DNA from: Serinibacter salmoneus
Lineage (GTDB): Bacteria > Actinomycetota > Actinomycetes > Actinomycetales > Beutenbergiaceae
Length of the DNA stretch: 64,000 nt
Direction: 5' to 3'
NCBI RefSeq assembly: GCF_002563925.1
Contig: NZ_PDJD01000001.1
Coordinates: 1,556,973 to 1,620,972 of the forward strand
Numbering within the stretch: the stretch's first letter is position 1; each line of letters starts with the position of its first letter. Made by a program: the position numbers and the translations under genes. Positions 19,995 through 20,316 of this stretch are shown here, piece by piece. Under the pieces are notes generated by a model that was not told where the DNA came from, did no database searches, and saw only the letters and a program-made list of their open reading frames with translations.

Positions 19995-20067
19995 TCCCGC
20001 ATAGCTCAATTGGCAGAGCATCCGACTGTTAATCGGACGGTTGATGGTTCGAGTCCATCTGCGGGAG
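19995..20067 (+). tRNA. tRNA-Asn(GTT), prophage integration target
   Basis: 73 nt: acceptor TCCCGCA/TGCGGGA, D stem GCTC/GAGC, anticodon stem TCCGA/TCGGA with loop CTGTTAA (anticodon GTT), T loop TTCGAGT, discriminator G. Phage genes begin directly at its 3' end, and the repressor gene overlaps its 3' half on the other strand. Confidence 0.96.
20029..20067. other. Probable attL core within tRNA-Asn 3' half
   Basis: Inferred core: tyrosine integrases of this type usually recombine within the anticodon-to-3' part of a tRNA gene, and the phage repressor gene begins its overlap here. The exact core length needs the right-hand copy, which is outside the window. Confidence 0.6.
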
Positions 20068-20316
20068 CAACAGGTCGGTCGGCTTCACCCCGAGAGCTGC
20101 AGCGAGCAGCTCGAGGTCGGTGAGGTCGACCGGCCTTTTTCCGTTGAGCTTCATCGTCAGCCCAGGTCCGCTCATGCCGATCGCGCGGGCGAGGCTGGCG
20201 CGGGAGAGCCCGTGCTCGCCCAGGATCCGCCCCACGTTGCGCGCAAGGATGCGGTGTAGCGGCAGAGGTCCATCCTCCCGAAGGGGCTGAACCAGCGAGG
20301 TCACATTGGTCTCCAT
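20029..20316 (-). CDS. Immunity repressor-like HTH protein whose 3' end lies in tRNA-Asn
   Basis: 95 aa. Residues about 24-80 are a Cro/CI-type HTH_3 domain (ARNVGRILGEHGLSRASLARAIGMS, LLAAALGVKPTDLLL). The last 12 codons (LPQMDSNHQPSD) and the TAA stop are read from the antisense of tRNA-Asn, the stop falling in the anticodon loop. No earlier in-frame stop exists. Upstream, TATAGAAT ends seven bases before the ATG and there is no ribosome site, so the message may be leaderless, as for lambda cI from PRM. It is divergent from the Cro-like gene across candidate operators. It is the only clear repressor in the prophage. Its C-terminus should differ in free phage. Confidence 0.75.
   Translation of the reverse strand: METNVTSLVQPLREDGPLPLHRILARNVGRILGEHGLSRASLARAIGMSGPGLTMKLNGKRPVDLTDLELLAAALGVKPTDLLLPQMDSNHQPSD

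Follow-up and report, generated by a model that had tools for sequence, protein, structure and literature searches.

We found that the prophage analyzed here very probably uses an integration-dependent immunity switch of the type described for mycobacteriophages BPs, Brujita and Charlie. The window, meaning the whole stretch of 64,000 nt that was analyzed, corresponds to bases 1,556,973-1,620,972 of a one-contig genome of 3.27 Mb, whose relatives point to an actinobacterial host. The ends of the element, an empty site in relatives, the truncation of the repressor, the tail lost with it, the gene order and the recurrence of the arrangement elsewhere can be read directly from the DNA.

In the phage, the attachment site would lie inside the repressor gene, and a 124-aa repressor, a small gene that we call ORF2 and the integrase would be read leftward as a single string, with a divergent cro-like gene on the other side. 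A tail of 29 residues is predicted to render the viral repressor short-lived or inactive. The integrase would recombine attP with an attB in tRNA-Asn. The repressor gene would keep its 5′ portion at attL, where the host base adjoining the core would complete a TAA codon and end the protein at 95 aa, short of its tail. The codons for that tail would move with ORF2 and the integrase to attR, 44.6 kb off. The trimmed repressor would then shut early lytic transcription and confer immunity. What we infer from this arrangement is that the long form is degraded, that the short form is active and controls the cro-side promoter, and that immunity results.

The attachment site and the repressor gene

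The features at the left end of the element and at its right junction are as follows.

19995-20068, plus strand: tRNA-Asn(GUU) (gtt) rebuilt at attL, 5′ half from the host and 3′ end from the phage (ARAGORN)
20029-20316, minus strand: repressor, prophage form, 95 aa, ATG start and TAA stop (ORF call; HTH_26 match)
20029-20031, minus strand: TAA stop of the prophage-form repressor, complement of tRNA U35-U36-A37 (rebuilt-attP comparison)
20030-20042, strand not given: attL core TAATCGGACGGTT, 13 identical bp that must contain the exchange point (attL/attR comparison)
20317-20430, no strand: divergent control region with imperfect palindromes at 20369-20390 and 20393-20413, which are candidate operators
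20431-20664, plus strand: Cro-like HTH protein, first rightward gene (HTH_26, E 1.1e-11)
Window-extended 64655-64693: attR, a copy of the tRNA-Asn 3′ end, with its core at L006:6628 = 64655

When the genome was searched with the attL stretch, attR was located as a copy of 39 bp, lying 655 bp past the end of the window, which supplies the copy of the tRNA-Asn 3′ end that the original prediction had proposed to look for past position 64,000. The two sites match at 35 of 39 bp overall (to 20068), made up of 13/13 in the core and 22/26 thereafter, and their differences are two paired changes in the T stem (2+2, compensating). The T stem reads GA..TC at attL and AC..GT at attR, as it also does in a relative whose site is empty (G007); the attL pattern also occurs in three genomes of another genus (G004-G006) but not in G007. 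This pattern among relatives indicates that attR carries the old tRNA end of the host and attL that of the phage, with the exchange taking place within the 13-bp block. The tRNA-Asn end supplied by the phage (20043-20068, compared with L006:6641-6666) may be a trace of an earlier host. A match to tRNA-Asn was present in all 24 family-group genomes, the prophage's own included, and the rebuilt 140-bp attB aligned over nearly its full length in G007 (3-140) and G001 (5-140), as expected of an empty site. Together, attR and the empty attB in relatives fix the ends of the element. The attB overlaps the tRNA-Asn gene, and the tRNA is restored after integration (ARAGORN; attB/T-stem comparison).

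The span from attL to attR is a prophage of 44.6 kb in which PHROGs scans identified terminase, portal, head protease, major head protein, tape measure, tail protein and holin genes, and on this sequence evidence it looks whole. Two further genes may be mentioned. A large acyltransferase-3/SGNH protein is encoded near attR (60289-62598, minus strand; PHROG O-antigen acetylase, E 3e-125), where a surface change brought about by the prophage is possible, and a protein in the packaging region (33177-34472) joins a ParB-like domain to a DNA methyltransferase.

The leftward gene encodes a protein with a Cro/CI-type HTH (Pfam HTH_26, E 2.6e-9). Comparing ORF 20029-20316 with the tRNA at 19995-20068 confirmed the earlier claim that this gene draws its final 12 codons and its stop from the antisense of tRNA-Asn. 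It had also been proposed that the stop falls in the anticodon loop and possibly outside the shared core, and this proved correct: base 20029 (tRNA U35) is host DNA adjoining the 13-bp core, outside the identical stretch. As this host base is U35, the stop is the complement of U35-U36-A37. In the rebuilt attP, where the common core sits within the repressor reading frame, codon 96 is instead TAC (Tyr), compared with TAA in the prophage (host T at 20029), and the repressor has 124 aa compared with 95 aa when integrated. Integration therefore changes the repressor C-terminus by trimming it, in line with the prediction from BPs. The 29-residue tail lost on integration is YTSSQVSAGSLDTPCKVIDLAERRESSAS, ending -SSAS, and in the rebuilt attP its TGA stop lies in a 4-bp overlap with the GTG start of ORF2.

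The upstream divergent gene of the original prediction is the Cro-like gene at 20431-20664. The leftward repressor and the rightward Cro-like protein are similar to each other (pairwise BLASTP E 1.3e-12). The two palindromes between them scored within the range of shuffled sequence and a second copy was not found within the window, and a scan of 20200-20560 for sigma-70-like promoters and terminators found none.

Among 16 proteins compared, the repressor matched Charlie gp35, which is annotated as an immunity repressor (24%, BLASTP E 3e-8), with the alignment covering the HTH and the tRNA-derived end. Searches with the repressor gave a single locus in IMG/VR, which is the same prophage, and one weak match beyond its own genome among 24 family genomes (G002, E 1e-7); the 124-aa form gave no tblastn match in INPHARED at E 0.01.

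ORF2, the integrase and related elements

Two genes of the leftward string lie partly or wholly beyond the window.

63397-64000, minus strand: tyrosine integrase, C-terminal part in the window, running to window-extended 64179 from an assumed GTG (L006:5370-6152)
Window-extended 64286-64570 (L006:6259-6543), minus strand: ORF2, 94 aa, beyond the window

On the circular molecule the order is repressor, attP, ORF2, integrase, all leftward on the same strand with the integrase last. The order and strand of the predicted arrangement (repressor, attP, integrase) thus stood, and its direct succession of attP and integrase gave way to one interrupted by ORF2, a gene absent from the canonical layout. 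Integrases of integration-dependent systems lack an arm-binding domain. Counted from the assumed GTG, the window integrase is 260 aa long, and a weak core-binding match starts at its residue 9. Its nearest relatives have 267-269 aa, but the open frame of the window integrase extends upstream (336 aa from an earlier GTG). It ends -NGAA, which may be a degradation tag, and two relatives end -ARAAA. The start of ORF2 is conserved among relatives. The protein had no Pfam match at E 0.1, and its predicted structure, obtained with the Promicromonospora kroppenstedtii sequence, consists of two long helices and a low-confidence remainder (mean pLDDT 60.8). A tblastn search with an ORF2 homologue gave no match in INPHARED at E 0.01, and a profile search matched 1 of 396 order genomes, the window's own, with at most 12 candidates per genome scored among the matches listed.

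At E 1e-25, integrase matches were found in 6 of 24 family genomes, own included. The integrase is 44% identical to those of phages GRU3 and GMA5, 39% to that of Angel and 30-33% to those of Charlie, BigNuz and Brujita, all from groups reported to use integration-dependent systems. In a midpoint-rooted tree it fell together with two Promicromonospora integrases and L021 (100/99), within a group of 18 entries (99/99) that includes Angel, GRU3, GMA5 and Danyall. The integrase of an IMG/VR contig (L083) fell elsewhere within this group, and those of Charlie, Brujita and BigNuz outside it.

An integrase alignment search of genome contigs gave two loci, both in Promicromonospora (MEB111 and P. kroppenstedtii). 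Both elements have ORF2 before an integrase that is 52-54% identical to the window's. Their attR tails read ...RPSD-YVQPQVKGGSYGRYMRVVGSEVAA and ...RPSD-YVYPQVKAPSYGRYLRLVGSAVAA, each followed by a stop, with the ends -EVAA and -AVAA, and both overlap ORF2 by ATGA. The attL sites lie about 16 kb away from attR, and the gene there ends ...LDLNQRPSD and a stop in the tRNA-Asn antisense. In MEB111 this gene encodes 102 aa with a Pfam HTH_3 match (E 1.6e-6) and is 60% identical to BigNuz gp34 over 80 aa; the P. kroppenstedtii gene (111 aa, start assumed) had no Pfam match. The two tails show 16 base differences, of which 9 are in third positions, with 6 of 24 residues changed, a pattern pointing to codon-wise constraint in these two relatives. 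The assembly of P. kroppenstedtii DSM 19349 also contains an attP-type junction after an N-run, beside attR (L042:1732-2100), in which the stretch ahead of the core is identical to attL at 93 of 93 positions and the frame runs into the tail to -EVAA. The fused form is present here as sequence, suggesting either excised element DNA or a mis-joined assembly. In L083 the viral form is uninterrupted: a gene of 142 aa with a tail ending -ELAA overlaps ORF2 by GTGA, and a different integrase follows. Over 82 aa the body of this repressor shares 33% identity with the window's (pairwise BLASTP E 1e-10). With attR located, the truncation established and relatives carrying the same ORF2 and -VAA/-LAA tails, the BPs-type interpretation of the original prediction is largely supported.

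These comparisons raise the possibility, which we regard as tentative and rather less likely than not to hold, that the att site serves as a plug-in joint. A cassette of tail, ORF2 and integrase would have been attached to several repressor bodies (window, MEB111 and P. kroppenstedtii), each time without a change of frame, and in L083 ORF2 and a repressor homologous to that of the window would have been joined to another integrase. As a gene coupled to the long repressor until integration separates the two, ORF2 would then be a third part of the switch, perhaps setting the direction of the integrase.

The tail, chance and other regulators

The host tmRNA tag ends -ALAA. We compared the C-termini of 13 phage genes beside related integrases, from phages hand-picked for variety out of 418 records, and most of the 13 showed a similar layout. 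Eleven of the 13 end in Ala (7 of them in -AA), and the others are Angel gp33 (-KAS) and Ryan gp40 (-NSV). With its -NSV end, gp40 of the Arthrobacter phage Ryan is probably no repressor of this kind. The -SAS end of the window tail is closest to that of gp33 from Angel, a relative of BPs. In BPs gp33 the substitution A135E is reported to stabilize the long form (PMC4557955), and elsewhere BPs is placed among systems without ssrA-like tags (PMC8092301). The window tail is not a canonical -AA degron, but a degron is plausible here. Of the prediction that a rebuilt attP would give a longer frame with an ssrA-like end, the longer frame is present (124 compared with 95 aa) and ssrA-like ends are seen in the relatives (-EVAA, -AVAA and -ELAA); the window's own tail ends -SSAS.

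Alternatively, the tail may exist for gene coupling, with translation of the long repressor feeding ORF2 and the integrase by way of the 4-bp overlap, integration cutting the integrase off from the repressor promoter, and both repressor forms being active. The GTGA overlap in the window element and L083, the ATGA overlap in both Promicromonospora elements and the noncanonical window tail would all fit such an arrangement. However, the relatives' tails end in -VAA or -LAA, which coupling alone does not need, and the long form of BPs is reported to be inactive through degradation. We consider coupling as the sole purpose of the tail improbable. It is compatible with a degradation switch, and both effects may act.

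Chance could account for some of these observations. The antisense of tRNA-Asn, of both tRNA-Lys genes and of tRNA-Arg(tct) reads D-stop in the repressor frame, so a stop in the anticodon loop is cheap and would be expected for any ORF entering there in that frame. At 68% GC, a tail of 29 codons would stay open with a probability of 0.51. Codon-position GC gives a weak signal in the tail (0.53/0.60/0.70, compared with 0.71/0.44/0.83 in the repressor body). Given that the stop and the open tail come cheaply and that this signal is weak, the case leans mainly on the relatives. An ordinary prophage in a tRNA gene, whose repressor happens to enter attP with a functionless C-terminal difference and whose lambda-like immunity is independent of integration, would display the same stop and open tail, and a tail without the canonical -AA end. 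Such a prophage would not account for the exact 4-bp overlap of the tail's stop with the start of a conserved ORF2: from base composition the first tail stop falls there with a probability of 0.012, and a 4-bp overlap is likewise present in three further elements, of which two are closely related. Nor would it account for the codon-wise constraint in two relatives' tails or the similar layout in most of the chosen phages, and we judge it very improbable.

We also considered whether immunity could reside in another gene. The PHROGs scans covered 50 element proteins (47 of 56 greedily called ORFs plus 22149-23024, ORF2 and 53579-53785) and left out nine called ORFs judged spurious and the regions at about 25.5-27.2, 41.5-42.2 and 53.8-55.5 kb. 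Beyond the repressor and Cro, two HTH or DNA-binding matches were found among the 50: 57778-58122 (transcriptional repressor, E 3.7e-7; Aca2/YdiL-like by Pfam, below the cut-off) and 22149-23024 (DNA-binding protein, E 1.9e-9; weak regulator matches, E 0.003-0.004). The reported PHROGs matches of these proteins include no CI/LexA-type repressor apart from HTH-region matches. On the minus strand at 57778-58331, a 54-aa acidic ORF is followed by the 114-aa HTH protein, a layout like that of anti-CRISPR/aca pairs. Either of these two genes may share in immunity. It is very unlikely that one of them holds it and that the leftward gene has no more than a Cro- or Xis-like regulatory role, as its similarity to the rightward HTH protein, the presence of the further genes and the regions outside the scans might allow, because the leftward gene stands beside attP, divergent from the rightward genes, and is homologous to the annotated immunity repressor of Charlie, and because 57778-58122 follows the 54-aa ORF, resembles Aca2/YdiL below the cut-off and lies at the element's other end.

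Known systems and implications

Integration-dependent immunity has been reported for mycobacteriophage clusters G, I, N and P, M. abscessus prophages, Gordonia phages and Bifidobacterium prophages. It has also been claimed for Tubberson, a Streptomyces phage that carries a serine integrase, and one Arthrobacter phage with a similar gene order is described as having attP outside the repressor. Among the systems close to our reading of the window is that of BPs (cluster G; gp33/gp32/gp34), which likewise has attP in the repressor gene, a divergent small gene, a host base beside the core that makes the stop at a third codon position (PMC9262239) and, as reported, core mismatches that preserve tRNA pairing. 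Its relative Angel has a tail of about 30 aa ending -AS and the 39% identical integrase noted above. Unlike the window element, BPs uses tRNA-Arg rather than tRNA-Asn and lacks the ORF2 found here between repressor and integrase, and the Angel repressor did not match the window's at E 1 in the set of 16 proteins. Charlie (cluster N; gp35/gp34) enters its tail as ...RPAD-Tyr, comparable to ...QPSD-Tyr in the window; however, its integrase starts 5 bp downstream with no ORF between and falls outside the window integrase's tree group, and its tail ends -SAA.

For the Gordonia phage GMA5 (cluster CW), an integration-dependent system that includes an additional ORF has been reported (PMC5559632). 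Like the window element, this phage has a repressor, a small ORF overlapping it by 4 bp and a related integrase of 269 aa, whereas its site is reported as tRNA-Lys and its genome has 17.6 kb. Its small ORF, orf18, was rejected as an ORF2 homologue, as the alignment did not rise above shuffles. One family genome, G009, carries next to a related integrase a small ORF (L013:2307-2711, minus strand) that resembles GMA5 orf18 by eye, and with that integrase it is possibly another integration-dependent cassette. In the M. abscessus prophages, as described in PMC8092301, Int may be apart from Rep, as in the window element, and some systems are without ssrA-like tags, but 3 to 5 genes lie between Rep and Int, and the clusters and hosts are others. 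A 2022 review reports that integration-dependent systems have no evident directionality factor; the Angel record labels gp34 as RDF. A literature search gave no paper on integration-dependent immunity together with Promicromonospora prophages, and one on Beutenbergiaceae prophages gave nothing related.

The kind of switch proposed here is already known, and the extra coupled gene ORF2 and the apparent exchange of repressor bodies around the att site are the parts worth following. The element and its relatives would add integration-dependent immunity in the host lineage of the window and in Promicromonospora, and the element provides a clean case of a repressor stop supplied by the tRNA anticodon loop itself. 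As any tRNA-Asn entered in this frame ends the repressor there, a working switch would be expected in every host that has this site. ORF2 may be an additional component of such switches, one that is open to experimental testing.
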